Source: a virus. Taken from it: a stretch of 46,081 nucleotides of DNA. The translations under genes were made by a program, and so were the position numbers. The DNA lies in IMG/VR virus record IMGVR_UViG_3300009181_000124, positions 1 through 46,081 of that record. One strand, 5' to 3'. The notes below the pieces were generated by a model. It searched no databases. It was not told where the DNA came from and saw only the letters and a list, made by a program, of their open reading frames with translations. Of this stretch, positions 2,180 to 17,642 are shown in pieces; within the stretch, counting starts at the first letter, position 1, and the number at the start of each line of letters is the position of its first letter.

Positions 2180-2389
2180 CTATAAATATTGTTCTTCTTC
2201 AACTAATTGAGCTTCTTCAATTTTCTCCACAAAATAGTATATTCCGTTTTTCTTCAATACAGCATCAGCATAAATGTATTCCTTATACTCCTGTACCATG
2301 TCTTCTTTTATATATGTTTCTTTAATGGTGCGTTTGATGAAGTATAAACTGTCTTCCCAATTTACAACTTGTTTGACTATTGTGAACAT
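2180..2389 (-). CDS. Hypothetical protein, 69 residues
   Basis: Unrecognised acidic protein (MFTIVKQVVNWEDSLYF ... EEAQLVEEEQYL) with no clear motif, membrane segment or Cys cluster. Its ATG overlaps the stop codon of the sliding-clamp gene, so the two are translationally coupled. A class II motif overlaps its stop codon and serves the next small gene. The coupling to the clamp hints at a replication-linked or clamp-related role, but the protein itself does not show this. Confidence 0.65.
   Translation of the reverse strand: MFTIVKQVVNWEDSLYFIKRTIKETYIKEDMVQEYKEYIYADAVLKKNGIYYFVEKIEEAQLVEEEQYL
2181..2188 (-). promoter_or_regulatory. Class II (late-type) motif before 41-residue gene
   Basis: The sense sequence AATATTTATAGTAAAAT lies about 15 nt before the ATG at 2165 and overlaps the stop codon of the preceding gene. 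Confidence 0.4.
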
Positions 2390-3123
2390 TACATGTCCTT
2401 TTTAACAATGTAATATGTACTTTTTACATTGTTTGTTTTAAATTCTAGCTTCAACAGTCCTTCTAAGTTAACGTATATTTTAGCTGACTCATAGTCTTTG
2501 TTACAAGAAAGTATTTCTTTAAATAAGTCTGAGTTAAATGCTAGTTCAAAGATTTTACTAGTATTTTTACTAATGTTTAAATAGTAAGACACTTTATTTG
2601 CATATTCAATGTCTCCACCAAATGTAAGTTCTAATTGTGGATCACCATCTAAACTTTGACATGGATTGATAACTACTGTAGTACTTTCTGCTAATGCTGA
2701 TTTAGCTTTAATTAAAGCAACAACTACTTCAGATTCTAAGTCAACTTCAATGTCCCATTCTTCAGAACCATTGTATGCTCCTGTTTTTGAAACTGTTAAA
2801 ATGTCTGCTAATGAGTAGTTGACTGTGAATTGTTGATCAGCAATGATTAGTTTAGTAAAAATTTTGTGACTTTTAATAAAGGTCAACATTACTTCACCAG
2901 CCGTAATTCCAATTAGTTTAAGTAACTGTGAAGTGTTACTAATGCCAAATGATGAGTTTTCTAAATTAAAGTTATTGTGACTTACTTCACCAATCATTTC
3001 TCGTGATGGTGATGTGAATTTAATGTTTAAATTATTGTCTTTGACGTCCCACTTAACAGACTCAATTAAGCCGTTAAGATAGTATTTGTTTATAACATTT
3101 TGTAATTCTACTTTGTTTATCAC
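2389..3123 (-). CDS. DNA polymerase sliding clamp (T4 gp45-like)
   Basis: Probable processivity clamp for the family B polymerase; in T4-like phages it forms a trimeric ring and also activates late transcription. At 244 residues it is close to T4 gp45 (228). The sequence is divergent. The call rests on overall pattern: repeated beta-rich clamp-like stretches (KLIIADQQFTVNYSLADIL, AKIYVNLEGLLKLEFKTNN) and the final strand STYYIVKKDM, which resembles the end of gp45-type clamps. The rest of the T4-like replisome is present, and the polymerase C-terminal half ends in a clamp-binding-like FFTF. It has its own class I promoter at 3136-3167. A structure prediction would confirm the fold. Confidence 0.7.
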   Translation of the reverse strand: MINKVELQNVINKYYLNGLIESVKWDVKDNNLNIKFTSPSREMIGEVSHNNFNLENSSFGISNTSQLLKLIGITAGEVMLTFIKSHKIFTKLIIADQQFTVNYSLADILTVSKTGAYNGSEEWDIEVDLESEVVVALIKAKSALAESTTVVINPCQSLDGDPQLELTFGGDIEYANKVSYYLNISKNTSKIFELAFNSDLFKEILSCNKDYESAKIYVNLEGLLKLEFKTNNVKSTYYIVKKDM

Positions 3124-3129
3124 TTTTTT

Positions 3130-3354
3130 TTATTTTAAATATATAAATAAAAATCTTAAAAGCCTAACTAAATTGGTAAATTTATAATTATCTAAATAAG
3201 ATTGAAAATCAGAAGAATTTATATTAGTAGGATATTTTGTTGTTTTACCTAAAAATTCAGCGATATATCTTAAGTATAATTTAGATGTATTAGGTGAATA
3301 ATTTAAGTACTCTAACTTTTGTTTACAAATCTCGGAGTAATCCAATTTTTTCAT
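3130..3354 (-). pseudogene. Truncated tyrosine recombinase, N-terminal core-binding domain only
   Basis: The 74-residue frame resembles the N-terminal SAM-like (core-binding) domain of XerC/integron-type tyrosine recombinases: CKQKLEYLNYSPNTSKLYLR, YIAEFLGK, then INSSDFQSYLDNY. The YSPNT-x3-YL pattern and the following helix are typical. The catalytic domain with its Arg/His/Tyr residues is absent. The final 16 or so residues (FTNLVRLLRFLFIYLK) are encoded by the class I promoter of the sliding clamp, so the original gene was cut at about 3170. It lies directly beside the attC-like array, where an integron would carry its integrase gene. It may be a broken integron integrase or another Xer-like remnant. 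An N-terminal domain alone cannot recombine DNA. Confidence 0.65.
3136..3167 (-). promoter_or_regulatory. Class I promoter before sliding clamp
   Basis: The sense strand reads TTAGGCTT-N16-TATATTTAAAA, ending 13 nt before the clamp ATG. It overlaps the end of the truncated recombinase ORF, whose last residues are encoded by the promoter itself. Confidence 0.8.
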
Positions 3355-3389
3355 ATGTTAAAGCATTAATAGTTAATATTTTATAAAAG

Positions 3390-3415
3390 GTTAGATATAT
3401 AATATAGTTATATGC
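3390..3415 (-). other. attI-like region: two recombination cores
   Basis: On the plus strand GTTAGAT (3390-3396, an exact GTTRRRY core) is followed by GTTATATGC (3407-3415). The second core is the left boundary of the first cassette and is the exact reverse complement of the outer core of attC1 at 3644-3652. No long inverted repeat like the attC sites surrounds it, as expected of an attI rather than an attC. It lies between the truncated recombinase start (3354) and the first cassette gene. Confidence 0.5.
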
Positions 3416-3615
3416 TATTTTAAACAGAAGTACTTAACAAAATCTTCTTCGTTAAAAATTGAATATTGACCTGTCCCATCATTAGGTTCTACTAATTTGT
3501 TTTGCCAAATTGAACTTTCTGCATAATATTCGTATTCTTTGCCTTTTGTGAAAATCTCTTTTTCGTAGGCAGAACCTTTGTTTTTAAACATTGTTACTTT
3601 TGCTATTACTTTCAT
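3415..3615 (-). CDS. Cassette 1 gene: hypothetical protein, 66 residues
   Basis: Small unrecognised protein (MKVIAKVTMFKNKGSAYEKE ... EEDFVKYFCLK). The pattern of beta strands with KGKEYEYYAE and a C-terminal FNEEDFVKYF resembles small DUF-type cassette or phage proteins with an SH3-like fold, but I cannot name a family. The stop codon starts at the last base of the GTTATATGC core, so the gene fills the cassette completely. It has an A/T-rich leader typical of Bacteroidota starts. Function unknown. Confidence 0.75.
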   Translation of the reverse strand: MKVIAKVTMFKNKGSAYEKEIFTKGKEYEYYAESSIWQNKLVEPNDGTGQYSIFNEEDFVKYFCLK

Positions 3616-3643
3616 TTTATTATTGATTTGCGAAAGAAAAACA

Positions 3644-3778
3644 GCATATAACAGCGTGTATAAAAAATGGCGGGTTTAGTGCCATTAAGAAACATTTTGA
3701 TGATATGAACTGCATTGCTTTCAAGTTAATTTTGTGCTTTAATTCCGCCACTTCTTATACACTCAAAACGTTATACGC
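3644..3778. repeat. attC-like site 1 (135 bp)
   Basis: The plus strand runs from GCATATAAC (3644-3652) to GTTATACGC (3770-3778). The inner arms pair as GTGTATAA/TTATACAC and TGGCGG/CCGCCA, with an imperfect central region. The outer core is the exact reverse complement of GTTATATGC at 3407-3415. Confidence 0.85.
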
Positions 3779-3793
3779 AAATAAAAATTACTA

Positions 3794-3991
3794 TTAGCGT
3801 TCCTTCCCTGTCATATAGTTTATTTCAATATCCTTCTTCCCCGCAAGTGCGTTCTTTGCATATTCATAAGCCTGTCTTACTTGTCTATCATGGCACGTTA
3901 CACCTTTGCTGCTTTCATGGATATTTGAAGTTATCCGCAATGCTTCAATTATTGTTTCTAATTGAAATTTGTAAATTGTTATTTCTTCCAT
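3794..3991 (-). CDS. Cassette 2 gene: hypothetical helical protein, 65 residues
   Basis: Small, mostly helical protein (MEEITIYKFQLETIIEALRI ... VRQAYEYAKNALAGKKDIEI), unrecognised. GC-richer codons (CGC, GCG, CCC) set it apart from phage genes. It sits between the core at 3770-3778 and the outer core of attC2 at 4024-4032, whose sequences are exact reverse complements. No signal peptide or membrane segment. Function unknown. Confidence 0.75.
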   Translation of the reverse strand: MEEITIYKFQLETIIEALRITSNIHESSKGVTCHDRQVRQAYEYAKNALAGKKDIEINYMTGKER

Positions 3992-4023
3992 TCTATTTAG
4001 TTTATCGTTAGTAATTTTTATCA

Positions 4024-4091
4024 GCGTATAACAGCACCTTAGCGTCAGCTTCGTTCCTCAGCCGAACGCCAAGCTGCAAAACGTTATGTGC
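4024..4091. repeat. attC-like site 2 (68 bp)
   Basis: The plus strand runs from GCGTATAAC (4024-4032) to GTTATGTGC (4083-4091). The arms GCACCTTAGCGT and ACGCCAAGCTGC pair at 10 of 12 positions. The outer core is the exact reverse complement of the core that opens cassette 2 (GTTATACGC, 3770-3778). The 68-bp length is within the range known for integron attC sites. Confidence 0.88.
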
Positions 4092-4095
4092 AAGG

Positions 4096-4428
4096 CTACC
4101 TATACACACCATCGAACCTTTTTCTCATTGTTTCATCAAATAGTATTGTTCCAACCATCTTGATATATTTATCAGCAAGTTTCCCTATCCACTTCATATC
4201 TCTCCAACTCATTTTTTGCCCTTTCAATGGTTCTTTTCTTGCAACAAATTGTTTTTGTCTATCAGACCATTTAATGAGAAAAAGTTCTTTGTTAAACTCT
4301 ATTACCGAGCCTACAAAAATATCGTTTCCGTTTGCGTCTTTAATTCCAATATCCTCACCCGCCCTGCACATAACAGCACCTTGTTGCAATGCGGGGCTTT
4401 TCGGTTCATTCAAATTTTGTTCTTCCAT
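4096..4428 (-). CDS. Cassette 3 gene: YopX-like protein, 110 residues
   Basis: The central part resembles YopX-family phage proteins: IGIKDANGNDIFVGSVIEF matches their (T/I)GLKDxNGxxIYxGDIV block, followed by a beta-rich segment (LFLIKWSDRQKQFVARK) and a C-terminal stretch (YIKMVGTILFDETM) that recalls the family's xxVIGNIYENPxL end. Family members are small proteins of unknown function in phages and mobile elements. The first 18 or so codons lie inside the outer arm of attC3, so the attC hairpin is partly coding. A start at the internal Met (MCRAGED) is possible. It is one of seven cassette genes, all on the minus strand. Confidence 0.7.
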   Translation of the reverse strand: MEEQNLNEPKSPALQQGAVMCRAGEDIGIKDANGNDIFVGSVIEFNKELFLIKWSDRQKQFVARKEPLKGQKMSWRDMKWIGKLADKYIKMVGTILFDETMRKRFDGVYR

Positions 4429-4502
4429 TGTAATTTATTTTTAAGTTGATAATTTCGTTCTTCTAATCCCGCACTGACAACAAGCTGCGGAACGTTATAG
4501 GT
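4366..4502. repeat. attC-like site 3 (137 bp), overlapping a gene start
   Basis: The plus strand runs from GCACATAAC (4366-4374) to GTTATAGGT (4494-4502). The arms GCACCTTGTTG and CAACAAGCTGC pair, as do TGCGGG and CCCGCA. The outer core is the exact reverse complement of the opening core of cassette 3 (GTTATGTGC, 4083-4091). The left arm encodes the first residues of the cassette 3 protein. Confidence 0.85.
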
Positions 4503-4506
4503 AAGG

Positions 4507-4695
4507 CTAAGACAATACCCATTCTAATATTTTAATCTGATTTGAAAGTGTTGCAATATCTGAAAGCATATCTGTATTTTGTTCAGTCATTATACCGCCA
4601 TTTCTACTTAACAAATCTTGTCTTTGCTCGTGTATTTCAGATATTTCAACCTTAATACTTTCAATCATTCTTTCAATTTGTTCTTTACTCTGCAT
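4507..4695 (-). CDS. Cassette 4 gene: short coiled-coil protein, 62 residues
   Basis: Small protein with heptad-like pattern over most of its length (EQIERMIESIKVEISEIHEQ, then DIATLSNQIKILEWVL), consistent with a two-helix coiled coil. No recognised family, signal peptide or membrane segment. It lies between core GTTATAGGT (4494-4502) and the reverse-complementary outer core of attC4. Function unknown; a small oligomerising or antitoxin-like protein cannot be excluded, and nothing specific supports either. Confidence 0.72.
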   Translation of the reverse strand: MQSKEQIERMIESIKVEISEIHEQRQDLLSRNGGIMTEQNTDMLSDIATLSNQIKILEWVLS

Positions 4696-4719
4696 CTTTT
4701 TAAGTTTGTGAGAAGCCCT

Positions 4720-4855
4720 ACCTATAACAGCACATAGGCAATATGGCGGGTTCTCTGGTTAATATTAAGTTCAGTTTTTCAAATCAAGTTTAGTGGTTGC
4801 AGAAAGTTTTGTGTTCCAAATCCGCCACATCGCCTATCTGCAAAACGTTATGTTT
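4720..4855. repeat. attC-like site 4 (136 bp)
   Basis: The plus strand runs from ACCTATAAC (4720-4728) to GTTATGTTT (4847-4855). The arms GCACATAGGCAATATGGCGG and the reverse complement of CCGCCACATCGCCTATCTGC match at 17 of 20 positions. The outer core is the exact reverse complement of the opening core GTTATAGGT (4494-4502). The interior resembles that of attC1. Confidence 0.88.
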
Positions 4856-4862
4856 AATTAAA

Positions 4863-5039
4863 TTATTGTTTTTGAATTTGTTTAATCATTTCATTCATTT
4901 GTGTTTTATCATCTTCAAACTCAAACAGTCTTTCTATTTCTTGAATTTGTTCTTCTGTGGTTTTAAACTCTTTAGTTATCAAACTAAAATCTTTTTCCAC
5001 TATTTTTTCTTCGATTACTTTTAATCTAATTTTACTCAT
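4863..5039 (-). CDS. Cassette 5 gene: hypothetical helical protein, 58 residues
   Basis: The ATG at 5039 opens a 58-residue frame (MSKIRLKVIEEKIVEKDFSL ... NEMIKQIQKQ), just below common ORF cut-offs. It is highly charged and probably all-helical, with no recognised motif. Its stop lies 8 bp from the cassette core at 4847-4855, and its start lies 40 bp from the outer core of attC5, the same layout as its neighbours; this supports it as a real cassette gene. Function unknown. Confidence 0.65.
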   Translation of the reverse strand: MSKIRLKVIEEKIVEKDFSLITKEFKTTEEQIQEIERLFEFEDDKTQMNEMIKQIQKQ

Positions 5040-5078
5040 ATTTTTATTTTTTTAATTTGTAAAACAATAATTTAACTA

Positions 5079-5136
5079 AAACATAACAAAGTGTAAAAAA
5101 CATTAAAACGATTTTTTACACTTGACCGTTATACGC
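5079..5136. repeat. attC-like site 5 (58 bp)
   Basis: The plus strand runs from AAACATAAC (5079-5087) to GTTATACGC (5128-5136). The arms AAGTGTAAAAAA and TTTTTTACACTT are perfectly complementary over 12 bp. The outer core is the exact reverse complement of the opening core GTTATGTTT (4847-4855). Confidence 0.85.
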
Positions 5137-5208
5137 AAGCACTACATTCGTTCTCCGATTTAGCTTTTGTGGAAGTAAAAAAGAAAATAAAAATTTGCCA
5201 ACGCTCAA

Positions 5209-5481
5209 TTAAATTAATTTTGTTACCTCTGACTGACAATACCATTCTCCATTTACAAAATAAGTCCATTGGTCAAAATCCCATTCTGATTTTTCAATCT
5301 TTCCGTTTAATCTTTTGTCGCCACTCCTTACTGTTACATCAGTTCCATTGTCAAGTGGCTTTGGCTCTTCAACTTTTTCAAGTTCATCAATGTATTCTTC
5401 CAAGTCTGTTTCAAATTGTATATGGTCAAAGTTTCTTGTTCCTTGCCAGTATTTATCATTGCTTCTTTTTGGTCTGTTCAT
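5209..5481 (-). CDS. Cassette 6 gene: hypothetical protein, 90 residues
   Basis: Unrecognised acidic protein. The C-terminal half (GTDVTVRSGDKRLNGKIEKS, then YFVNGEWYCQSEVTKL) looks like a small beta barrel of the SH3/Tudor type seen in many short cassette and phage proteins. The N-terminus (MNRPKRSNDKYWQGTRNF) is basic. It lies between attC5 and the degenerate sixth site; 72 bp between attC5 and its stop codon hold nothing I can identify. Function unknown. Confidence 0.72.
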   Translation of the reverse strand: MNRPKRSNDKYWQGTRNFDHIQFETDLEEYIDELEKVEEPKPLDNGTDVTVRSGDKRLNGKIEKSEWDFDQWTYFVNGEWYCQSEVTKLI

Positions 5482-5499
5482 AATGATTTAATTTTAAAA

Positions 5500-5550
5500 T
5501 TGCCTCCCTAAAATTTTAAAGGCTTCGTTTAGCCCCGATACGTTATACGT
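5500..5550. repeat. Degenerate attC-like site 6 (inner core only)
   Basis: The plus strand ends in GATACGTTATACGT (core 5542-5550) after TTAGCCCC, like the inner ends of the other sites. A matching outer TATAAC core was not found. A short inverted repeat GCCT-N14-AGGC lies at about 5501-5524. Probably a decayed or rearranged site. Confidence 0.45.
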
Positions 5551-5938
5551 CATTTTGCTTTTCCCTACCGCCCTCAATACATTCAAGTTTGCCGTTAGTG
5601 AATTTGGCAAAAAACTCATACCAGTCACTTCCAATATTGGAATAGAAATTTACATAACCGTGATGCGGTATTACTTCAAGCCTTTCATTTACTCGCCTCA
5701 AACTGCCCATTAATCCAAGCAACCCTTCTCCATCAGGATGCGGTCTTTCTTCTTTTGGAACTTCCTCGTAATTCCATCTGCTTACTTTGAGTTCTCCTTC
5801 ATCGGTTATGTAAATTTCCGTTAGTTCGCAATCAAAGTCTTTTGTCTGCCAATTTGGATTTTTACCAATTAGTTTTTTTTCTTCATCTGTTACAGGCAAC
5901 TTGTCTGTATTGATGTATAAGTTGTCAAACATTCCCAT
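5543..5938 (-). CDS. Cassette 7 gene: hypothetical protein starting MGMFDNLY, 131 residues
   Basis: The protein begins MGMFDNLYINTDKLP, a start seen in small hypothetical proteins of Bacteroidota and other bacteria. It continues with WQTKDFDCELTEIYI and beta-rich segments ending in NGKLECIEGGREKQNDV. An in-frame GTG start at 5974 exists, but the ATG at 5938 fits the family-type start better. The stop codon (5543-5545) lies inside the core GTTATACGT of the degenerate site 6. Function unknown. Confidence 0.72.
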   Translation of the reverse strand: MGMFDNLYINTDKLPVTDEEKKLIGKNPNWQTKDFDCELTEIYITDEGELKVSRWNYEEVPKEERPHPDGEGLLGLMGSLRRVNERLEVIPHHGYVNFYSNIGSDWYEFFAKFTNGKLECIEGGREKQNDV

Positions 5939-6028
5939 TTTTATATTTTGTTTTTGATTAATATTTGTTGCCACTTCTATTTTTAAAATCTATTCTATTT
6001 CAACTACCCACTACACGGGCTTACGCAC

Positions 6029-6112
6029 TCTGCTAACATGGTATTACCGCAACCCCGAAAACTTTTCAGGTTGCCTATCGGGGCGGACGGCAATACCTGA
6101 AACGTTATCTCA
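6029..6112. repeat. attC-like site 7 (84 bp), distal end of array
   Basis: The plus strand runs from about TCTGCTAAC (6029-6037) to GTTATCTCA (6104-6112). The arms TGGTATTACCG/CGGCAATACC and CCCCGA/TCGGGG pair. Unlike sites 1-5, the outer core does not match the start of its cassette, so this cassette may have been rearranged. Confidence 0.65.
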
Positions 6113-6151: not shown

Positions 6152-6175
6152 TTATTCTAAAATTATTTTTCCCAT
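6152..6175 (-). pseudogene. Remnant gene start MGKIILE-stop at the edge of the cassette array
   Basis: Directly after class I promoter 6180-6211 the sense strand reads ATGGGAAAAATAATTTTAGAA then TAA. The intact gene at 19749 begins MGKIILEFDSEEE after the same promoter type. The 7-residue piece therefore looks like the 5' end of a related small gene, cut off where the cassette array begins. Confidence 0.55.
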
Positions 6176-6179
6176 ACTG

Positions 6180-6211
6180 TAAATATATGTCTATAAGTCT
6201 TGGAAGCCTAA
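6180..6211 (-). promoter_or_regulatory. Class I promoter facing the cassette array
   Basis: The sense strand reads TTAGGCTT-N16-TATATTTA. The TTAG includes the stop codon of the polymerase C-terminal gene. It would now drive the remnant ORF and then the cassette genes, giving them phage transcription. Confidence 0.8.
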
Positions 6212-7092
6212 TTAAATGTAAAAAATTTCTTAACGTTTGGATTGAGTGTTGGAAATTCCCATTTTAAGTCTTCATAAAGTGACTTTAACTTGTTAGCCAA
6301 CAATGAGTCAAATATTTCTTCAACATCAATGTACTGTTTAACAAATTCTTCAATTTCAGGAGGTGTTTTAGCATTTGGAACGCCTATTGTTTCTATTCCA
6401 AATGGATTTTGTTTTAAGTTGATAACAAACAGTTTGTCGCCTTCAATTATGCTCTCGTATTTTTTGTCTAGCTTTTTAAACTTTAACAAGTCATTATAAC
6501 GAACTGCTGCTTTTGTGTTGAATGGTGCTTTCAATTTAAATCTACTGAATATTTCTCCTGCAGTTGACCTTATTTGATAGTTAGATATTTGTTTTACTCC
6601 TGTAGGCTTTCCTAGTTCTTTTGGGTCTAGTGTTTTAAGTGACTTGTAAAAGTCAACAATGTTGTTGTCTATTTCTTCTTTTGGTTTGCCAAACAACACA
6701 TCTTTAATTAAGTTTTCACCAAACTTTTTAAACAGTTTGTTCATGTTGGACTTCATTAGTTCAAGTCCTTTCATGTCTAGTTCTTCAACAGGCACACCTT
6801 CCTTGTTGGTAACATACATGGCATATCTTCTTTTACCAGTAGTTAAAACCCCGGCACAAATTACTTCTTGTTTTAATTGGAAGTAATGTGTGTCGGGGCT
6901 GATGTTGAATAAACGCTTACTTAAACTGTTTAAGTTGTCGTTTGACTCATTTTGAATTTGGGTGGCTAATTTTAATATAATCTCATTTTTGTTGGCATCG
7001 TTGATTTCAATGCCTTGAGACTTCATGTATTTTATAATGTGACCTAAACAAATGTATAAACTATCAGTGTCACTTATAATAATATTTTGCAT
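6208..7092 (-). CDS. Family B DNA polymerase, C-terminal half (split gene)
   Basis: The 294-residue protein begins MQNIIISDTDSLYICLG: polymerase motif C (DTDS) stands at residues 8-11, followed by palm and thumb segments with the KRRY block (about 87-90), NPFG and VKQYIDVEEIFDSL. It ends VKKFFTFN, a clamp-binding-like peptide comparable to the C-terminus of T4 gp43. It lacks the exonuclease domain and motifs A and B, which are in the separate gene at 13044-11296. Together the two are 876 residues, near T4 gp43 (898). The halves presumably assemble into one enzyme. The gene follows a 69-residue ORF with 1 nt between them, behind its own class I promoter at 7325-7356. Confidence 0.93.
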   Translation of the reverse strand: MQNIIISDTDSLYICLGHIIKYMKSQGIEINDANKNEIILKLATQIQNESNDNLNSLSKRLFNISPDTHYFQLKQEVICAGVLTTGKRRYAMYVTNKEGVPVEELDMKGLELMKSNMNKLFKKFGENLIKDVLFGKPKEEIDNNIVDFYKSLKTLDPKELGKPTGVKQISNYQIRSTAGEIFSRFKLKAPFNTKAAVRYNDLLKFKKLDKKYESIIEGDKLFVINLKQNPFGIETIGVPNAKTPPEIEEFVKQYIDVEEIFDSLLANKLKSLYEDLKWEFPTLNPNVKKFFTFN

Positions 7093-7093
7093 A

Positions 7094-7303
7094 TTATGAA
7101 TTTGCCTTTACCTGCATGTATGGTTGAGGAATTGTTAATGTAACGTTGTATTTTTTGCTCCATTCTTCTGCAAAACTATTGAATTCTGCAAGAGCTGCTT
7201 GTTCACGTTTAACCATATCATCAATGACCGCTTGTTGTGCCTTTTTTAAGTCAATGGTTTCTTCTTCTGTTGCTGCTTTAATTGGTTTTTTAGGTTGTAA
7301 CAT
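7094..7303 (-). CDS. Hypothetical protein, 69 residues, cotranscribed with polymerase C half
   Basis: Lysine- and glutamate-rich helical protein (DLKKAQQAVIDDMVKREQAA, then FAEEWSKKYNVTLTIPQPYM), unrecognised. The YNVTLTIPQPYMQV ending recurs in small phage proteins. Its stop codon is 1 nt from the polymerase C-half ATG, so the two are translationally linked. Class I promoter 7325-7356 lies directly upstream. A role in polymerase assembly is possible from the linkage only. Confidence 0.7.
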   Translation of the reverse strand: MLQPKKPIKAATEEETIDLKKAQQAVIDDMVKREQAALAEFNSFAEEWSKKYNVTLTIPQPYMQVKANS

Positions 7304-7324
7304 ATTTTTTGTTTTATTTTATTT

Positions 7325-7356
7325 TAAATATAAAAAAGAATATTTAACTTTCCAAA
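7325..7356 (-). promoter_or_regulatory. Class I promoter for polymerase C half
   Basis: The sense strand reads TTTGGAAA-N16-TATATTTAAAA, with the same 16-nt gap as the other class I promoters. It gives the detached polymerase half its own start. Confidence 0.7.
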
Positions 7357-7393
7357 TTTACTTCATTAAAAGTAACATTTTTCTTGTAATTCT

Positions 7394-7645
7394 TTAACTA
7401 TTGGTGTAAGTTTCTTGAATGTAAACTAATGCCGCGTCAGTAGAGTATTGATCCATTAACAGTGGATCAAAAGTTGCAATAGTAACTTCGAATGTTGTGT
7501 TGTCAACTTGTTCAAATTTTCCTACTGGTGCATTTTCAATTTTTACAACAATCTGTTGGTTGAAAATGTATTTTGTTTTGTTTTCATTTAATTGTGGAAT
7601 ATTATTACTTAAGTAAGTTCCTGCTAATTGATAAGTTAATGCCAT
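7394..7645 (-). CDS. Hypothetical, probably structural, protein, 83 residues
   Basis: Beta-rich small protein (MALTYQLAGTYLSNNIPQLN, then ALVYIQETYTNS) with no named family. It directly follows the large tail-fibre gene and a weak class II-like AT motif, so I infer a virion or fibre-associated protein. It has no signal peptide or membrane segment. It is the last gene of the structural module that lies between the two DNA polymerase halves. Confidence 0.65.
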   Translation of the reverse strand: MALTYQLAGTYLSNNIPQLNENKTKYIFNQQIVVKIENAPVGKFEQVDNTTFEVTIATFDPLLMDQYSTDAALVYIQETYTNS

Positions 7646-7694
7646 GTTACAAAGTTATTATTTATTTTGTTATATATTATTTATTTTATTATAT

Positions 7695-10600
7695 TTAGCA
7701 TGATACCCATGCTGCTCCGTTGTAAAATACTCTAACTGTAACAGCCCCGCCACCAACTAAGGCGGCATTATATGTTGGCAAAGTTGCATCGGTTACATAA
7801 GCGGTATCACCTACTGACCCTGCGGGTAAAGTAGCAACTGTGTAACCCATTAATTTTATCGGAACCGCTGCCGTAACCCTTAATTCTCCAATAGTAAATC
7901 GCGTTGTTGCTGTTTGCAATGTCGTTCCACTTGCTAATGTAGTTCCTGTTTGAAAAATAATATTTGGAGGAGTGGCGTTTCCTGTGCTGCGTGTAGCAAA
8001 TGTAAGTGATGCCCCTGCGTTATTTGAACCTGAACCTCCACAAGCATTAAGAACAGTCGAATATGCTGCTGTGTGTGTTACTCCGTTAAAGTACCAATTT
8101 GAAATATAACCATTAGCACTATTTGAACCCAAAACACCCTGATTAGCTGCTGTTGCTGTTGCTAAAAAGCCTATACAAACGGTTGCATTAAATGTACTAT
8201 ATGCTCCACCACCTAATGATACAGCAAAATTTCCAGAAGCATATGTAACATTATATTGACAATTGCCAATAGCTGTCGAATTTACTCCTGCAACGTTTGT
8301 TCCAGAAGATAAATTTCCACCAATTGCCAATCCATAACCGCTGGCAGTGGCTTGTCCCATAGCTATTGAACCATAAGTTCCTATTGTAGCTGATGGCCCT
8401 ATTGAAAAACCATTTTCTGCTACACCAAGTCTTAAAAATTTAGCTCCACCTAAATTTAAACCATTTGTTGTTGCTGTTCCACCTGACGCTCCAATATTTA
8501 AAAGGTTATTTGTCTTATCCCAAGTTAAATCTGCATCCTCGCCATATACACCACTGTCATTAAATGGTATTCTTGTTGAAGTTCCGCTTGTTATGGTGGT
8601 TGTGCCTACTGTTATTCCTGATGAAGCCGTTGCCCAAGATAAAGTAGCCACTCCTGCTGCGGGTGCTGTACTCTGTAATACCTGCCCTGCCGTTGGTGCT
8701 GTTGTTGGTAAATCGTATGTTATAGAAGCGGACGGATTTGTTCCTCTGAATGTTTGGATGAAAGCATTGGTAGCGTTTCTTAACACTAAAGTTCCTGCCA
8801 CGCTACTTGCTACTCCTGATGTTACTGCGCCTGTTAAAACCAAACTTGTTCCTGTTGCTACTCCTACATATGATGATGTTGAAGCAAAAGAACTACTTAC
8901 TGCGTTTAAGACATATGATGCACTTGTTGCGTTTTGAACATATGATGCGCTTACTGCGTTTAAGACATATGATGCACTTACTGCATTAGATGCTGTACCA
9001 ATTAATGTTCCTGTAAATGAACCACTAAATGAACCGGTATTACTTAAAAATTGATCTACTCTATTTGCTGTTACAATAAGTGATGGTATGCCTGGTACTA
9101 CTCCGAACCCTGCTTCAGCATGTAATCTTACATTTGCATCCGGTGAATACCACATTAATTGATAATAATCATTTGCTGCTGAGTTAACAAAGAAATTCCA
9201 TGCTGCAACATAGTGAGCTCCATTTCCTACAAGTTGTATAGAAGTAGCTGAGTCACTAATATCAGTTCCATTTTTTCTTAGCCAAATCCATATCTCATCT
9301 GTTCCACTATCTGTTTTATCTACTTGAGCAGAAAATTGAATATCATATACTCCAGCATTTTCTGTTTTAATATATGTATTAAATGGATTTGTTGAACCTG
9401 AAATAGATACTCCGTTTGTAATATCTGTTATATTAAGAGACATTGAACGAGCGGTACCTGCTATATTAGTTTGTATTTGAGTAGAATAAAAGCTACCATA
9501 TGAACCAGTTGCCGTATTAAATCCTCCTCCACCTGATGTTGAAGAAATAGTAACTTGACCTAAACCATTTGTTGGTGATAATGTTACATTTGGTCCTGCT
9601 AATAATTGAGTTACACCACCGTTTAAAGCAAATGAGCTACTTACAGCTTGTAATACATATGATGCTGTTAAAGCGTATGAAGATGTACCTGCAAATTGGG
9701 AAGCATTAGATCCAGTGTATAAATTGAATGATGCTGTTGTTACTAATGACCCTGTGTCTACTGATCCTCCTCCATTTAGTGAATATGATGCTGTTAAAGC
9801 GTATGATGCACTTGTTGATGTGGAAGCATAACTCGCTGTTCCAAATAAAGATCCAGTAAATGATGGGGCTGTTACTCCTCCAGGCATTGAAAGTGTACCA
9901 TCATTATTAAAATTCCAGGTGTGTGAAGCTGAGGTTTGAATATAAGCACCAAAGTCATCTACCCAAATAAGTGATTGTGTGTTGCTTGATGCTAATTCTA
10001 CATATTCTCCGGGTGCAGCTATTATATCAATGCCTCCTCCATAAAATAAATTATTTACAAGACTACCTCCTTTTAAATTTATAGAACCAGTCACTTCTAC
10101 ATTATTAATAAAAGCAACTTTATCTGGATATACCAACAATCCATTTTCAGCATTGTATCCATTTACTTGTAAGCCTATACTTTGTGTTGAGTCGTTGTGA
10201 AAAACAAATCTACCATCATCCCAACCAAAGTAACTCATTATAGAGTTTGTTGTTGAGAATGTGTCATTGTAAAAACGAGATGTCCAAGGGTATGCATTAT
10301 TAGCATGAATTTCTTGAATTGCTAGGTTTGGACTACCAACCGTTGGAGTTAACATTATGTAACCATTATCTCCAATTAAAGATTGATTGCCTAACACACC
10401 TACTGAACCTGTAAATTGAGCTGGTCCTATGTTTATAAAAGTGTTAGAACCACTTACAATAAATGAACCTGTTATTTCAATACTACTTGTAGTATTCCAA
10501 ATGTTTCCACCTACATAAGTAAAAGGAGCAGAAGATCCGGATGGGCCTTGAGAGCCAGATGGGCCTTGAGAGCCAGATGGACCAGGAGGACCTTGAGAGC

Positions 10601-10808
10601 CAGATGGGCCTTGAGAGCCAGATGGACCAGGAGGACCTTGAGAGCCTGATGGACCTTGAGAGCCTGATGGACCTTGAGAGCCAGATGGACCTTGAGAGCC
10701 AGATGGACCAGGAGAACCTTGAGGACCTAATGAATTAACTGTCACTACACTAGTAGATGGATTTAATATAGTAACAGTATTAGCGTCTGAGATAATATTT
10801 ACTGACAT
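7695..10808 (-). CDS. Tail fibre protein with collagen-like and YadA-head-like repeats, 1037 residues
   Basis: Large probable host-recognition fibre. Residues about 28-92 are Gly-X-Y collagen-like repeats (GPSGSQGPSGSQGPPGPSG). A beta-rich shaft follows with many short repeats of the ASYALTASY / SASYVLNAV kind (about 330-400 and 610-680). The C-terminal third contains trimeric-autotransporter-head-like segments (GSIAMGQATASGYGLAIGG, NSTAIGN) and ends in a compact VGDTAYVTDATLPTYN ... AAWVSC domain. Such proteins are normally homotrimers. The C-terminal third is visibly GC-richer than the rest, which suggests domain exchange. The gene starts 4 nt after the preceding virion gene ends and lies between the two DNA polymerase genes. 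Confidence 0.88.
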   Translation of the reverse strand: MSVNIISDANTVTILNPSTSVVTVNSLGPQGSPGPSGSQGPSGSQGPSGSQGPSGSQGPPGPSGSQGPSGSQGPPGPSGSQGPSGSQGPSGSSAPFTYVGGNIWNTTSSIEITGSFIVSGSNTFINIGPAQFTGSVGVLGNQSLIGDNGYIMLTPTVGSPNLAIQEIHANNAYPWTSRFYNDTFSTTNSIMSYFGWDDGRFVFHNDSTQSIGLQVNGYNAENGLLVYPDKVAFINNVEVTGSINLKGGSLVNNLFYGGGIDIIAAPGEYVELASSNTQSLIWVDDFGAYIQTSASHTWNFNNDGTLSMPGGVTAPSFTGSLFGTASYASTSTSASYALTASYSLNGGGSVDTGSLVTTASFNLYTGSNASQFAGTSSYALTASYVLQAVSSSFALNGGVTQLLAGPNVTLSPTNGLGQVTISSTSGGGGFNTATGSYGSFYSTQIQTNIAGTARSMSLNITDITNGVSISGSTNPFNTYIKTENAGVYDIQFSAQVDKTDSGTDEIWIWLRKNGTDISDSATSIQLVGNGAHYVAAWNFFVNSAANDYYQLMWYSPDANVRLHAEAGFGVVPGIPSLIVTANRVDQFLSNTGSFSGSFTGTLIGTASNAVSASYVLNAVSASYVQNATSASYVLNAVSSSFASTSSYVGVATGTSLVLTGAVTSGVASSVAGTLVLRNATNAFIQTFRGTNPSASITYDLPTTAPTAGQVLQSTAPAAGVATLSWATASSGITVGTTTITSGTSTRIPFNDSGVYGEDADLTWDKTNNLLNIGASGGTATTNGLNLGGAKFLRLGVAENGFSIGPSATIGTYGSIAMGQATASGYGLAIGGNLSSGTNVAGVNSTAIGNCQYNVTYASGNFAVSLGGGAYSTFNATVCIGFLATATAANQGVLGSNSANGYISNWYFNGVTHTAAYSTVLNACGGSGSNNAGASLTFATRSTGNATPPNIIFQTGTTLASGTTLQTATTRFTIGELRVTAAVPIKLMGYTVATLPAGSVGDTAYVTDATLPTYNAALVGGGAVTVRVFYNGAAWVSC
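10530..10727 (-). repeat. Collagen-like Gly-X-Y coding repeats
   Basis: A short unit encoding GSQGPSGSQGP is repeated almost identically about ten times within the fibre gene. Such DNA can expand or contract by slippage. Confidence 0.85.
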
Positions 10809-10812
10809 TGTA

Positions 10813-11211
10813 TTATGTTGTTACTTGATTACTTAATCTAATTTGGCCTTCTAATAATCTTATAGTGTAAGGACAATCACTACCTGAGTACAATTCTAAA
10901 TCATAGTAAGCTGTAGGAAATGTAAGTAAAGATGAAGTACAAGAGGATATGTATATTCCAATGGAACCACTTGTTGGAGGTGTAATTCCATTACTTCCAC
11001 TAAAATTTAAACCTGTTCCATCTGAATTTAAAGAACTAGACAAGGTAATGTACACAGTGCGAGTAACATCATATGCATAATTAGACGCAATTTGCATTCG
11101 ACCTGAGTAGTTAGTTAAGTCTACTGGGTTGTTTAGTGAGTCTAGATATTGTATTTCAAAATTAGTTGTTGCTCCTTGTTCTATAGTAAAAGAATATCTA
11201 CCTGCTGCCAT
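10813..11211 (-). CDS. Virion structural protein, 132 residues
   Basis: The start MAAGRYSFTIEQGATTNFEI with IQYLDSLNNPVDLTNYSGRM, and the end IRLLEGQIRLSNQVT, form a pattern I know from virion proteins of T4-like marine phages (IEQGATT-x-FEIxYxD ... LEGxxxLSxEVT). It is probably a small beta-sandwich fibre- or head-associated protein; the precise location is unknown. A class II motif (11223-11230) precedes it, and the tail fibre gene follows 4 nt downstream, so the two form a late unit. Confidence 0.75.
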   Translation of the reverse strand: MAAGRYSFTIEQGATTNFEIQYLDSLNNPVDLTNYSGRMQIASNYAYDVTRTVYITLSSSLNSDGTGLNFSGSNGITPPTSGSIGIYISSCTSSLLTFPTAYYDLELYSGSDCPYTIRLLEGQIRLSNQVTT

Positions 11212-11295: not shown

Positions 11296-13044
11296 TTATA
11301 AATTGAACTTAGCTATCAATTCTTCTTTACTTAACTGTAAATACTCATTGTTTATTTTATTGTTTACAAAGTCAATAGTAGACATAGTTAAACGTTGTCC
11401 TGAGTTTGTAATGGCTGAACTACAAATCAAGTGACCATCAGTGTATCTCCATCCATTTTTAGCAAAAGTACCATACATTGCGTTTTGTAAAATTTTAAAA
11501 CTATGTTGAAATAAGTCGTACAATTTATAGTTAGTCCAATCTTCTTCCTTACCTGCTTTCTTTTTTAGTGCTCTATAATGTTCTCTCTTTTTAAACCATC
11601 CTTCTAATATTTTAGCTACAATACTTTGTTCATCTGTTCTAAACATAGCACCTGATGCTGCAATAGTAAAGTTGTTTTTTTCAATTAAGTCAATTAAGTC
11701 TTTTAATTTTATTTGGGCTGACTTAAGAGTGTAATTTTCTTTGTTTAACTTTTCAATTTCTACTATTTCATTTGGATCTCTTTCTTTAAGCTTTTCTAAT
11801 GATTGGTTTTGCTCATAAGTAACATCGTGATGTACTTTAATTCTACCTACTAATGTTTCAATGGCTAAGTTAAGAGACTTAATAATACTAGGATACAGTG
11901 ACGTAAAGTCTAAGTCTATGACGTCAAAGTACAAGCCAGATATTGGTTCAAGTAAATATCCGCCAGCATATGATATATTATCCGCTTTTAAAGACGAATT
12001 ATGAGTAGTTGGCTTATTTGGTGAAACAATGCCTTCTCGTTTTAAATACTTTAAAATTGCGCCTTCATTCATAACTGTGTTCCAATATATGCTTTCATAA
12101 GGAATGTTACAGATGTGGGATATCATGATGGTCAGTTCAATGAACTTTAACTTGTCTTCAAGTTTTTCTAAAATGTCAACGTCACGTAAGTTATAGTCAA
12201 TAAAAGTATTTAAGTCGTTTTTAAACAATGTGTTTAAATTTCCCTCATATTCTACCTTACCTAAGTCAACGTATTTTAAGCCAATGTCTCCTAGTTTATA
12301 TGATGGTTCTTCCTTCATAATGTATTTTTTATGAAGTAACATATAGTCTAAGTGATTGACTCCTCCTATTCTAACTTGTAAAGTACCTGCAAATTCTCTA
12401 AAGTTGATTTTTCCAATAGGAGACATTCTCAATATTTCGTCGTCGCCTAAAGTGTGTTTAATTCTGAAGTATAAGTAAGGCATGTCAAAGTAAGCACTGT
12501 TCCATCCCACTACTATTGTTGGGTCTAATTCCTCCCACTTGTCTAAGAATTTTTTGATGAGTTCCTTTTCAGAAACACATGGTACAATGTGTTTACCATT
12601 TTCATTTGATTCTTGAATTTCCTTATTTTTGTCTACAACAAAACACATTTTAGTCTTTGTAGTCATGTCTATTAAAGCAATTGAAGTTATAGGCATAGGA
12701 GCAGCCTTGATGTATTCAGGTGTTAAGGCACCTCCCATTTCAATTTCAATGTCTAAGTATACAATGTTGTGAAATGAAGGTACCACGTCATCATACTTAT
12801 AGTACAATTCTCGTAAAATGAGAAGTTCCTTGTTGATGTCTTTTTCTAAGAGATTAGTGTCGTCTTTACTGAATTTTTTAGTTGGAATTGCAAATCCTCC
12901 AGTTAAGATAGGTTGAGCACCTTCTTGCCATTCATCAACTCGTTTCCAATAAGTGGGTTGATATTGAAATTTAGACCATCCATTTTTATCATCTCGAAGA
13001 TAATATGTGTAGTCCTCAAATGAATAGTGAAGTGCTTGATACAT
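11296..13044 (-). CDS. Family B DNA polymerase, N-terminal half: exonuclease plus motifs A and B
   Basis: The 582-residue protein holds the 3'-5' exonuclease motifs (Exo I VYLDIEIE near 96, Exo II VVGWNSAYFD near 180, Exo III YNLRDVDIL near 285), polymerase motif A (DLDFTSLYPSI near 378) and motif B (KILQNAMYGTF near 520). It stops after the helix SGQRLTMSTIDFVNN with a tail ending AKFNL. Motif C is absent and is found at the start of the gene at 7092. T4 gp43 carries all of these in one chain. The gene follows dUTPase by 16 nt behind class I promoter 13524-13555. Split gene 43 forms are known in some Aeromonas T4-like phages. Confidence 0.95.
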   Translation of the reverse strand: MYQALHYSFEDYTYYLRDDKNGWSKFQYQPTYWKRVDEWQEGAQPILTGGFAIPTKKFSKDDTNLLEKDINKELLILRELYYKYDDVVPSFHNIVYLDIEIEMGGALTPEYIKAAPMPITSIALIDMTTKTKMCFVVDKNKEIQESNENGKHIVPCVSEKELIKKFLDKWEELDPTIVVGWNSAYFDMPYLYFRIKHTLGDDEILRMSPIGKINFREFAGTLQVRIGGVNHLDYMLLHKKYIMKEEPSYKLGDIGLKYVDLGKVEYEGNLNTLFKNDLNTFIDYNLRDVDILEKLEDKLKFIELTIMISHICNIPYESIYWNTVMNEGAILKYLKREGIVSPNKPTTHNSSLKADNISYAGGYLLEPISGLYFDVIDLDFTSLYPSIIKSLNLAIETLVGRIKVHHDVTYEQNQSLEKLKERDPNEIVEIEKLNKENYTLKSAQIKLKDLIDLIEKNNFTIAASGAMFRTDEQSIVAKILEGWFKKREHYRALKKKAGKEEDWTNYKLYDLFQHSFKILQNAMYGTFAKNGWRYTDGHLICSSAITNSGQRLTMSTIDFVNNKINNEYLQLSKEELIAKFNL

Positions 13045-14004: not shown

Positions 14005-14904
14005 TTAATACCCTGGGTAATAGCTTACTAAATGCCATACTGTTCCAATAGACATAAATGTAAGAACTTCTCTATCACTTAATGGATTAACATAAGGACC
14101 TCCACCAAACTGGACAGTATTACCTGTTGCGGCTGTTATTGTCCAATAAGTGGCGCTTGTATTTTGAATGTTTTTTATAATTAAAATTCTTCCATCAGTT
14201 GTTCCAGATACTAAAGTTGGTAGTGTTAAAGTTGCTGTATTTAGTCCCGCTCCAGTCATATAAACAATATAATCAGTTGCAGCTAAAGTTGTGGCAGTTG
14301 TAGTAACATATGTTGTAACTTTACCAGCTATATTTCCATTTACCTTTAGTGTTGAGCCTGGTGTAGTTATTCCTATACCTACATTAGTACCATTATCAAA
14401 TGTTGTTCCTATTCCTATTGTAGTAGCACTTGTCCAACGAACAAGATAGTTAGTAGTACCTCCACTTAATGTAGCTGCAGCGCCTGTAGGACCTGTAGCA
14501 CCTACAGAACCATTTGATCCTGCTGTTCCCGTTGCTCCAGTAGCTCCTACTGCACCATTGGTTCCATTTATACCATTTGATCCTGCAGTACCTGTAGCTC
14601 CATTTATACCTGTAGCTCCTGCAGTACCTGTAGCTCCAGTAGGTCCTGTTGCTCCTATAGGTCCAGCAGTCCATGTTAATGCACCTGCACCACTATTATA
14701 AAGGTATCCTGCACTATGTGCAACAGGCCAACTATAACCTGATACATTATTTATTTTTATTGGATTACCTGATGAATTGATTTGGAATTTACCTTCAACA
14801 TCAAATAATGATGTTGGAGTAAAGCCTGAAGATGTACTAATGCCTACTTGAGCATAAGTAACCATACTAAATAAAGAGAATAGTAATACTAGAAGATTTT
14901 TCAT
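14005..14904 (-). CDS. Secreted collagen-like protein with signal peptide, 299 residues
   Basis: An N-terminal Sec signal (MKNLLVLLFSLFSMVTYAQ) is followed by a beta-rich region, then a Gly-X-Y collagen-like segment (GATGPTGATGTAGATG and similar, about 80-143). The C-terminal domain contains VGIGITTPGSTLKVNGN, a pattern common in Bacteroidota secreted and fibre proteins. A signal peptide is unusual for a virion protein, so export to the host periplasm or surface is likely. The ATG overlaps the stop of the T9SS-cargo gene (ATGA), showing tight coupling. It may alter the host surface, or it may be a host-derived gene. Confidence 0.75.
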   Translation of the reverse strand: MKNLLVLLFSLFSMVTYAQVGISTSSGFTPTSLFDVEGKFQINSSGNPIKINNVSGYSWPVAHSAGYLYNSGAGALTWTAGPIGATGPTGATGTAGATGINGATGTAGSNGINGTNGAVGATGATGTAGSNGSVGATGPTGAAATLSGGTTNYLVRWTSATTIGIGTTFDNGTNVGIGITTPGSTLKVNGNIAGKVTTYVTTTATTLAATDYIVYMTGAGLNTATLTLPTLVSGTTDGRILIIKNIQNTSATYWTITAATGNTVQFGGGPYVNPLSDREVLTFMSIGTVWHLVSYYPGY

Positions 14905-16073
14905 TGTTTTATAAATTTAAAGGTGTATTTATTTGTTTCGTTTTCCATTCTAAAGTAATAAGTTCCATTAGCTAAATTAGTAACATCAAACTTTGTTTTA
15001 TTACTTAAATCATCAAAAACTAATTTTCCATTAACATCAAATATTGTGAAATGATATTTAGAAGAATGATTTACATTAAATACTCCTTCGTTTGGGTTAG
15101 GATATAAAACTATGGTTTTTATTTCATTACAACCTACTATAATATCACTGTATTCAAATTCATCATTATTATCTACTTGTTTTAACCTATAATATTGATA
15201 TGTGTTTTCTGTTTGATATGAATAATAAACTAAGGAGTTTGAGTTCCCTTCGCCTGAGATAGTATCTATATCAGTAAAAGTACTAGCATTATCACTTCCT
15301 TGAACAATAAAGTATTTGTTATTTGTTTCAGATGCAGTTCCCCACATTATTAAACCCACACAGTTTATTTTAAAATAAACTAATTCAATTGGTAAAGCAT
15401 TACCACCGTCTACAGCAGTCCATGTTTCATAATAATCCTGTACGTTGGCTAAGTTAATGATTATTGTATTAAGTCCAGTATTAGAGTAAGGAGAATAAAG
15501 CCAGTCACCCCATCTGTCAGCCACATCGTTATAACGTTGCATCGTTAAGTTTGACTCAGTGATTGTGTTCCCGACTAAGTCAAGGTCAGCATAAGTAAAT
15601 GTTACAGTAGACTTAGGCTCTGCAACAGGATAACCATTAAATTTAATTTGCCAAAATCTGTCAATAACACTGATAGAGTTATCAGCATGTGCATCGTTGG
15701 TTACAAAATTAACTAGAGATGGATAAGGAGTATTGCTGTTGGTTGTTTCATAAGTATTTAGTTCAATGTTTGTTCCTGGAGAAGTAGAAGTTACATTCAA
15801 CAATAAAGGTATTCTTGTTCCATTAGAAGCAACATATGGAATAGTATATGTTCCTAATGTTGAACCGGTTACTAACCATTTTATTTTTGCTGTTTCATTT
15901 TGACAGTAAATTCCTCCACTTGTTCCTATGTCTCTTAGTCCAGTTGGATCATTTTTAGTTAAAACTAAGTATGTATTTGCTGAAATGTAAACATATGAAT
16001 CTTTAATAACCATTTGTGAAAATGACAAAGTAAAGTAAAAAAATAATATTGTAAAAATTATAGTTTTTTTCAT
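14901..16073 (-). CDS. Secreted protein with type IX secretion C-terminal sorting domain, 390 residues
   Basis: The start MKKTIIFTILFFYFTLSFSQ is a Sec signal peptide. The body is beta-rich. The region LPIELVYFKINC ... MWGTASETNNKYFIVQGSDN ... YYRLKQVDNNDEFEYSDI is the block that in Bacteroidota proteins precedes a sorting domain. The last 75 or so residues (IVLYPNPNEGVFNV, FTIFDVNGKLVFDD, LANGTYYFRM) form a type A T9SS sorting domain. Such proteins cross the outer membrane through the T9SS and are attached to or released from the cell surface. It is cotranscribed with the collagen-like protein and follows the 86-residue gene by 6 nt. Role unknown; surface modification or exclusion of other phages is an inference. 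Confidence 0.88.
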   Translation of the reverse strand: MKKTIIFTILFFYFTLSFSQMVIKDSYVYISANTYLVLTKNDPTGLRDIGTSGGIYCQNETAKIKWLVTGSTLGTYTIPYVASNGTRIPLLLNVTSTSPGTNIELNTYETTNSNTPYPSLVNFVTNDAHADNSISVIDRFWQIKFNGYPVAEPKSTVTFTYADLDLVGNTITESNLTMQRYNDVADRWGDWLYSPYSNTGLNTIIINLANVQDYYETWTAVDGGNALPIELVYFKINCVGLIMWGTASETNNKYFIVQGSDNASTFTDIDTISGEGNSNSLVYYSYQTENTYQYYRLKQVDNNDEFEYSDIIVGCNEIKTIVLYPNPNEGVFNVNHSSKYHFTIFDVNGKLVFDDLSNKTKFDVTNLANGTYYFRMENETNKYTFKFIKQ

Positions 16074-16359: not shown

Positions 16360-16998
16360 CTAAAATTCAGAACCGTTCTTCATAATTGCTTGTAAAAATT
16401 CTTCTCTGATTAAGTTATTTGATTCCATAAATACACCGCTGAATTTGTTAGTAGTCATTGTTGAATCATGTTTAATACCTCTACTTGAGCAACATGTATG
16501 TTTACATGAGATTGATACTGCTACTGATAGGCAATCCATTTTTTCTGAAATGTAGTTGTGGACTTGTTGGGTTAATGATTCTTGCATTTGTGGTCTTCTA
16601 GAAAACCATTCTACAATTCTATTTAGTTTTGACAAACCAATAACATTTTCTTGTGGAACATAAGCTACAGTAGCATAACCTGTAAACGCTAGATTGTGAT
16701 GTGCACACATACTTGTTACTTCAATACCACTTTGTATTACTAAACCATCGTATTTTTCATCGTTTGGAAACACTGTAATGTTTGGTTCGTCTGTTACTGA
16801 TCCTATAATAAGGTCATTTATAAATGATTTCGCAACTCTTTTAGGAGTATCAATAGTTTGTCTATCTGCTTCGTAATCAAAACCTAAGGCATTTAAAAAT
16901 TTACCATAGTGTTTTGCTGCTTCATTAATCATATTATCTTTTTCCTTTTCAGAACGAGACATACTACCATTTGATTTTTTTAATAGTTCAATTTTCAT
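16360..16998 (-). CDS. folE: GTP cyclohydrolase I
   Basis: Converts GTP to 7,8-dihydroneopterin triphosphate, the first step of folate and of 7-deazaguanine synthesis. In 212 residues the zinc ligands and active site are intact: MCAHH (Cys98, His101), the block SKLNRIVEWFSRRPQMQE (123-140) and CKHTCCSSRG (Cys169). With QueD, QueE, QueC and a DpdA-like protein in the same window, it most likely feeds preQ0 synthesis for DNA modification. The ATG overlaps the stop of an upstream homing endonuclease gene (ATGA), so that gene lies between queE and folE in one transcription unit. Confidence 0.95.
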   Translation of the reverse strand: MKIELLKKSNGSMSRSEKEKDNMINEAAKHYGKFLNALGFDYEADRQTIDTPKRVAKSFINDLIIGSVTDEPNITVFPNDEKYDGLVIQSGIEVTSMCAHHNLAFTGYATVAYVPQENVIGLSKLNRIVEWFSRRPQMQESLTQQVHNYISEKMDCLSVAVSISCKHTCCSSRGIKHDSTMTTNKFSGVFMESNNLIREEFLQAIMKNGSEF

Positions 16999-17642
16999 AT
17001 TTGTTTGTTTTTATAATAGTTTTTGTTTATATATTTATAATTACTTTTTGGATTTTTTAATAGTAAAAACATTTTTCTTTTGGAAATTTTTTCATTAATC
17101 ATGCATTTTTTTATAGAATTATATATTTCCCCACTTACAACATTTATAATACTATTACCTGTTTTAGGTCCCGATCCTATTAGTTTATTTCCTTTACCAC
17201 ATCCAGCACCTGGTTTGGGTTTACCTTTTTGTTTTAGATCGGGTTTACCTTTGCGTTTACTTGGGATACCTGTTTTAGATATACTTAAATTCAAACAATG
17301 TTCTTTACTTTTTGCCTTTCCTTTTAATGAATTACTAATTTTGTTTCTTGTATTTTTACTACAACTGCCTCTACCATTCCCTAATCTTAGATTCAATCCA
17401 TTATTTAATACATCATAATGATTTCCCCAATATATTTCACGTTCATTTAAATTACATTTGCTACATTCTTCAATAATTTCAAATTGGTGATTGGTAATGC
17501 CATGTTTTTTAAATGAATTATATAATTTAACTTGTCTTTTATTATTGAGATTATTATATTTTCCAAAACGTTCTTCTATATTGACAGATTGTCCAATGTA
17601 TATTTTTCCTGTTGGGTTTGTTATTTTATATATTCCTACCAT
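16995..17642 (-). CDS. Free-standing GIY-YIG homing endonuclease
   Basis: Residues 1-90 form a canonical GIY-YIG domain: VGIYKITNPTGKIYIGQS, then NIEERFGKY and NEREIYW with the metal-binding Glu. The middle has NUMOD3-like repeats (RNKISNSLKGKAKSKEHCLN, SKTGIPSKRKGKP), and a lysine-rich DNA-binding tail follows. It is placed between queE and folE and overlaps the folE start by 4 nt. It is closely similar in design to the endonuclease at 26180-26779, which suggests both spread from a common source. A TTGACA-N15-TATATTTA stretch and a TATTTATT motif precede the start. Confidence 0.92.
   Translation of the reverse strand: MVGIYKITNPTGKIYIGQSVNIEERFGKYNNLNNKRQVKLYNSFKKHGITNHQFEIIEECSKCNLNEREIYWGNHYDVLNNGLNLRLGNGRGSCSKNTRNKISNSLKGKAKSKEHCLNLSISKTGIPSKRKGKPDLKQKGKPKPGAGCGKGNKLIGSGPKTGNSIINVVSGEIYNSIKKCMINEKISKRKMFLLLKNPKSNYKYINKNYYKNKQI

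Follow-up and report, generated by a model that had tools for sequence, protein, structure and literature searches.

A probable decayed integron-like element between the DNA polymerase and putative sliding clamp genes of a T4-like virus

The window analysed here is the whole of IMG/VR virus record IMGVR_UViG_3300009181_000124, a metagenomic sequence of 46,081 nt from a T4-like virus. Between its DNA polymerase gene and a putative sliding clamp gene lies what is best interpreted, with a probability of about 85%, as a decayed integron-like element of a T4-like phage of Bacteroidota, the tyrosine recombinase of which is cut to its N-terminal 74 amino acids. The array of the element occupies positions 3408-6104 and consists of seven cassettes with six hairpin sites and one half-site. 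The initial annotation of this region (3390-6112) as seven short genes separated by attC-like sites, each with a TATAAC-type outer core, a GC-rich imperfect hairpin and a CGTTAT inner core, was borne out: seven small minus-strand open reading frames (ORFs) were found at 3415-5974 with hairpins between them, and five of the sites are matched by a covariance model built independently of the window. The true left limit of the element is at 3130, beyond the 3390 of that annotation, which missed the recombinase remnant, the attI-like site and the evidence of cassette movement.

The hairpin site was defined from other contigs as NTAAC, one base, an 11-bp stem, a 3-nt internal loop, a stem of about 6 bp and a loop, followed on the return strand by 3 nt, the 11 bp, five bases (usually AAAAC) and GTTAN. 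A covariance model (R1) made from 46 training sites, all from other contigs and none from the window, has exactly five matches in the 46-kb window, all on the plus strand and all inside the array: 4724-4851 (E = 4e-10, cassette 4), 3648-3774 (2e-8, cassette 1), 4370-4498 (4e-7, cassette 3), 4028-4087 (7e-7, cassette 2) and 6033-6108 (4e-5, cassette 7). A sixth, short site at 5083-5132 (cassette 5) has a perfect 11-bp stem (11 of 11 pairs) and a DNA-folding z score of -3.8 that was reached by 0 of 200 shuffles, and at the seventh boundary (about 5519-5546, cassette 6) the right half alone remains, with no R1 match. A stem template requiring at least nine pairs finds six sites in the array and none in five Markov controls, and 265 sites across all collected loci compared with one in reversed sequence. 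Stem positions covary strongly (92.8% paired, versus 60% when shuffled), although the R1 seed sites were chosen for pairing and the out-of-sample matches are the cleaner test. G-T pairs are rare save at one stem position, nearly all pairs being Watson-Crick, as expected if the hairpin forms as DNA and not as RNA; this DNA-type covariation lends no more than indirect support to the presumed recombination of a folded single-stranded site.

Cassette boundaries can be placed from the ends of the gene units. The two ends of one unit are complementary (GTTA, then 6 bp, a conserved mismatch and a further 4 bp), with scores of 0.6-0.9 for a unit's own ends versus 0.3-0.5 for shuffled ends, whereas the flanks of a single hairpin are not complementary. 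Such pairing is what would be expected of a unit that excises as a circle, its two ends then lying on either side of its own hairpin. Where hairpins at different loci are nearly identical, they share the left-hand unit in 23 left-only pairs, several of them strong, compared with six weak right-only pairs; ownership of the hairpin by the right-hand unit was rejected on these counts, and because the hairpin travels with the left-hand unit, the crossover is placed at the right-hand G|TTA. Judged from sequence comparison, cassettes move: cassette 3 (4083-4505) is 91% identical to a solitary insertion at 2921-3343 of L345, a phage that is unrelated to this one and has a DnaB-type helicase, and the pair marks the jump of a single cassette. 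GTTAT is the exact starting point of the identity, and between the two copies the arms of the hairpin differ by compensatory changes on both sides.

The recombinase remnant is a 74-residue ORF at 3130-3354 (minus strand) with the N-terminal core-binding domain of a tyrosine recombinase (Pfam PF13495, Phage_int_SAM_4, E = 3.2e-6, above cut-off). Its frame continues into the polymerase-clamp spacer and the catalytic domain is gone, including the residues R, K, H, R, H and Y that are invariant in ten phage recombinase sequences. The remnant aligns at 53% identity with residues 1-76 of the full-length L100 recombinase; such full-length relatives (265-270 residues) adjoin arrays in L097 and L100, and the L100 protein matches PF00589 with E = 5e-39. 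In L147 and L148 the recombinase beside the array is frameshifted, residues 1-133 and 134-266 being encoded in different frames. Viral loci fetched by the recombinase ORF alone (21 in number) contain 66 sites found by R1, all 66 of them upstream of the recombinase and on the opposite strand, and sites are present in 18 of the 18 loci in which the upstream DNA is long enough. The neighbourhoods of these recombinase-array associations are those of phages, with terminase, baseplate hub and RNA ligase genes on contigs of up to 362 kb.

Between the remnant and the first cassette lies an attI-like site, GGTTAGATATATAATATAGTTA, at 3389-3410 (plus strand), with a putative crossover at G3407|T3408. When 19 phage loci, the window among them, were aligned over the DNA that precedes the recombinase start, a conserved TATA-rich stretch ending in GTTA was revealed; the GTTA is invariant in all 19, and immediately after it the sequences diverge into different cassettes. 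The motif ATATATAN{3,4}TAGTTA occurs seven times in 5.5 Mb of collected DNA (both strands), one of these occurrences being in the window. A similar motif is located downstream of the recombinase stop codon in at least 8 of 14 bacterial loci.

Several features of this system are shared with integrons: tandem one-gene cassettes, a folded site for each cassette, crossover at G|TTA and, at one end of the array, an attI adjoining the gene of a tyrosine recombinase. The phage recombinases have the same C-terminal SPL motif as IntI and group with IntI apart from XerC/D, which are set off with support of 100/100; the main phage clade is supported at 100/96, and IntI falls among the recombinases of bacterial arrays (95/81), its placement inside that group being weaker. 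Recombinase size and domain layout are like those of XerC/XerD and XerA-type proteins, and the closest solved structure is that of a XerA-like protein (4a8e), but besides the separation in the tree, the sites are hairpins and not double-stranded dif-like sites. Single-sequence structure prediction of the recombinase (pLDDT, the predicted local distance difference test score, of 50) was too poor for use. Other features differ from those of integrons. None of the aligned phage and bacterial array recombinases has the insert near patch III that is specific to IntI and is described as essential to integron function, though incompletely conserved (PMC8138268), and the TIGR02249 match to the array recombinase is broken and below cut-off. 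The sites possess the R box, but their 11-bp stem lacks an evident or consistent bulged base, and the unpaired spacer is asymmetric, with 1 nt on one strand facing 5 nt on the other. Phage cassette genes are directed toward the recombinase and run against attC polarity, and R1 misses canonical sites. That the element works like an integron is well supported by these sequence comparisons; because the insert is absent, it is not a member of the canonical IntI family. The initial annotation of an integron-type array in a T4-like phage was apt as to the mode of working, but what the window holds is probably the decayed form of an element with its own attI and a recombinase of a phage clade, and not simply a cluster of canonical attC sites lacking an integrase (CALIN).

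The same sites are found in at least 119 stretches of Bacteroidota genomes. The first pass of the R1 genome search misses long-loop sites and under-reports, and a gapped pattern was used in its place; at least one strict long site is present in 35 of 297 Bacteroidota genomes, with about five control matches. Among the common 128-bp hairpins of bacterial arrays (L152-L231 and other Bacteroidota genomes), long loops have repetitive text, TTCAGTGCT...TTGTGCTTC, that is conserved between species. Of 20 loci for IntI-like recombinases, 8 have sites at a distance of no more than 1.5 kb, compared with 0 of 16 chromosomal XerC/D loci of the same genomes. The bacterial arrays (for example L155, L201, L227 and L289) resemble those of phages in fitting the same site model and in having a related insert-less recombinase and a like attI motif, but differ in polarity. 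Genes and attC sites are oppositely oriented in 112 phage units and similarly oriented in none, whereas 57 bacterial units have the mostly canonical, similar orientation and eight the opposite one; the bacterial recombinase reads toward an attI located after its 3' end, whereas the phage attI precedes the 5' end of the recombinase. Two cassette pools may be kept apart in this way, since a gene would have to face the direction of transcription of its operon. The earlier proposal that phages serve as vehicles for cassettes between Bacteroidota is disfavoured by this opposition to most bacterial genes, and a phage-only pool fits better. Two contigs of bacterial metagenome-assembled genomes, L222 and L257, have cassettes in the phage orientation only, and L257 has two phage-type methyltransferases; both may be phage contigs binned with bacteria.

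The foremost rival explanation, that the array is a CALIN whose cassettes are of the ordinary integron kind, were acquired from a bacterial chromosome and would be recognized, if at all, by a host IntI, is unlikely. Like sites are indeed widespread in Bacteroidota genomes, and cassette arrays in lytic phages are already known: CALINs have been described in virulent phages, namely TJE1, PH101 and P12002L, the last a phage of Bacteroidota, and some CALIN sites of virulent phages were recombined by IntI1 (Qi et al. 2023, PMC9892861). However, R1 gives no match in two published CALIN phages (P12002L and MW202573), the Vibrio integron array of phage MK672802, or R100; the 23 array-bearing genomes contain no IntI that scores above the cut-off of TIGR02249; the phage recombinases form their own clade, with an attI at the array; and gene polarity is opposite to that of bacterial arrays. 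Complete integrons have been reported as rare in Bacteroidetes (PMC9024848). If a CALIN is defined as at least two close attC sites with no integrase gene, the window would fit in having no intact integrase, yet it has its own recombinase remnant and attI.

Still less credible is a reading in which the hairpins between the small phage genes are terminators of transcription or repeat elements. The hairpins are intergenic and GC-richer in an AT-rich genome, and the array hairpins match no Rfam family, as such a reading would allow, but it does not account for a single-cassette insertion with exact cassette boundaries, for complementarity of cassette ends that skips the hairpin, or for sites on a fixed side and strand relative to the recombinase and attI.

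The place of the element in the phage genome is defined by its flanks, both on the minus strand. Upstream in the operon is the C-terminal part of the DNA polymerase gene (6208-7092; phrog_1918, E = 3e-45), and downstream is the putative sliding clamp gene (2389-3123), which adjoins the polymerase in nearly all relatives. The reported location between these two genes is thus sound for the polymerase and for the conserved neighbouring position, but Pfam and PHROG searches with the putative clamp gene were without match. The gap between the polymerase and the gene in the clamp position is mostly 24-55 nt in relatives, compared with 3,083 nt in the window, where two copies of the polymerase-clamp spacer, 77% identical, bracket the insert: one beside the clamp (3131-3173, minus strand) and one beside the polymerase (6175-6217). 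Among 835 kb of relatives' DNA, sites occur only in L029/L076 and L023, all of them in the polymerase-clamp slot. The T4-like L029 has a full-length recombinase, the end of which overlaps the clamp start; L023 has kept the C-terminal end alone (judged by eye from the last residues), and the window the N-terminal end alone. A search of sister arrays for the window's cassettes found none, L029 having other cassettes in the same slot. Although the window is a metagenomic virus record, an assembly chimera of phage and bacterial DNA, formerly named as the outcome that would undo the finding, is the least probable explanation of all, refuted by the independent contigs L029/L076 and L023, where this slot likewise holds sites together with a recombinase or the end of one, and by the phage-type gene orientation. 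The distinct base composition claimed for the block was not upheld: its G+C content is 33.5%, compared with 31.1%, and 131 of 758 windows of equal length elsewhere reach 33.5%.

In the mechanism that we propose for the phage integron-like element, the phage tyrosine recombinase would catalyse joining of the hairpin site of a circular cassette, consisting of one small gene and one hairpin, to the attI beside the recombinase gene, with crossover at G|TTA, and new cassettes would be inserted next to the recombinase. In the circular cassette, the ends would pair to complete an arm that is set apart from the adjoining 11-bp stem by an asymmetric unpaired spacer, and paired ends plus stem would constitute a core site from one folded strand of DNA. 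Cassette genes, facing the recombinase, would be read as part of the polymerase-clamp operon. Several observations weigh against this interpretation. The recombinase of the window is broken, and its cassettes may by now be immobile or dependent on an enzyme supplied in trans; two of the seven, cassettes 6 and 7, have decayed; the complementary cassette ends could be kept for some other reason; the 18 recombinase-fetched loci include near-duplicates and amount to about 15 independent ones; and the longer hairpins of the window, when whole strands are folded, do not surpass their shuffles, owing to their long loops. Whole-strand folding energy was set aside as weak evidence for long-loop sites.

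All seven cassettes are on the minus strand. Cassette 1 (3408-3770; gene 3415-3615, 66 residues) has a terminal inverted repeat of its own ends, and cassette 2 (3771-4083; gene 3794-3991, 65 residues) has one of 24 nt with two mismatches. The gene of cassette 3 (4084-4494; gene 4096-4428) has weak similarity to YopX, and an ATG also falls within its core site. Cassette 4 (4495-4847; gene 4507-4695) encodes a coiled-coil-like protein of 62 residues, and its hairpin and left arm are 86% identical in L112, where the right neighbour differs. Cassette 5 (4848-5128; gene 4863-5039, 58 residues) is followed by cassette 6 (5129-5542; gene 5209-5481, 90 residues), which has a relative in L346, and cassette 7 (5543-6104; gene 5543-5974, 143 residues), which has relatives in L083-L086. 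Matching ends are kept by cassettes 1-5; those of cassette 7 no longer match. Among 99 phage cassette proteins, there are a few DNA methyltransferases, one Mom-like protein and one GNAT acetyltransferase, and most have no known function; no function was assigned to the window's own cassettes in this cargo analysis. The idea that the phage captures small anti-defence genes is plausible for the methyltransferases and the Mom-type protein but is not carried by the majority, and a counter-restriction role of the cargo is a reasonable but limited guess.

Other genes of the window were noted. The DNA polymerase gene is in two parts (6208-7092 and 11296-13044), with tail-fibre-like and other ORFs between them (7094-11211). 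Of 72 relatives, 13 have a polymerase that is broken at this junction too, with smaller insertions (about 0.6-1.6 kb), and the split was rejected as a sign of chimerism because it recurs in these relatives. Three minus-strand ORFs resemble GIY-YIG homing endonucleases by eye (926-1630, 16995-17642 and 26180-26779), and GIY-YIG-like genes are located in the polymerase-clamp slot of other phages, such as L029 and L040. Genes resembling FolE, QueE, QueD and QueC by eye (16360-16998, 17701-18546, 20172-20651 and 21424-22371, respectively, all on the minus strand) suggest 7-deazaguanine modification of the phage DNA. A protein encoded at 14901-16073 (minus strand) has a C-terminal domain that resembles, by eye, the sorting domain of type IX secretion, which points to a Bacteroidota host.

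No description of this type of recombinase-attI-array system was found in the open-access literature. It is somewhat more probable than its opposite that a second kind of integron, devoid of the IntI insert, exists in Bacteroidota and their phages; that the phages run their own recombinase clade, attI and private cassette pool, with genes inverted relative to attC for reading in the operon; and that IntI is a later, insert-bearing branch. The recombinase would escape any tool for which the IntI domain is obligatory, and the system may therefore be under-counted. With recombinases that act on attC-like hairpins but lack an insert reported to be indispensable in IntI (PMC8138268), the origin of integrons would become directly testable. 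For lytic and very large phages, the system would amount to a gene-capture system of their own, by which small accessory genes, some of them for DNA modification, are swapped at a fixed, expressed place in the genome.

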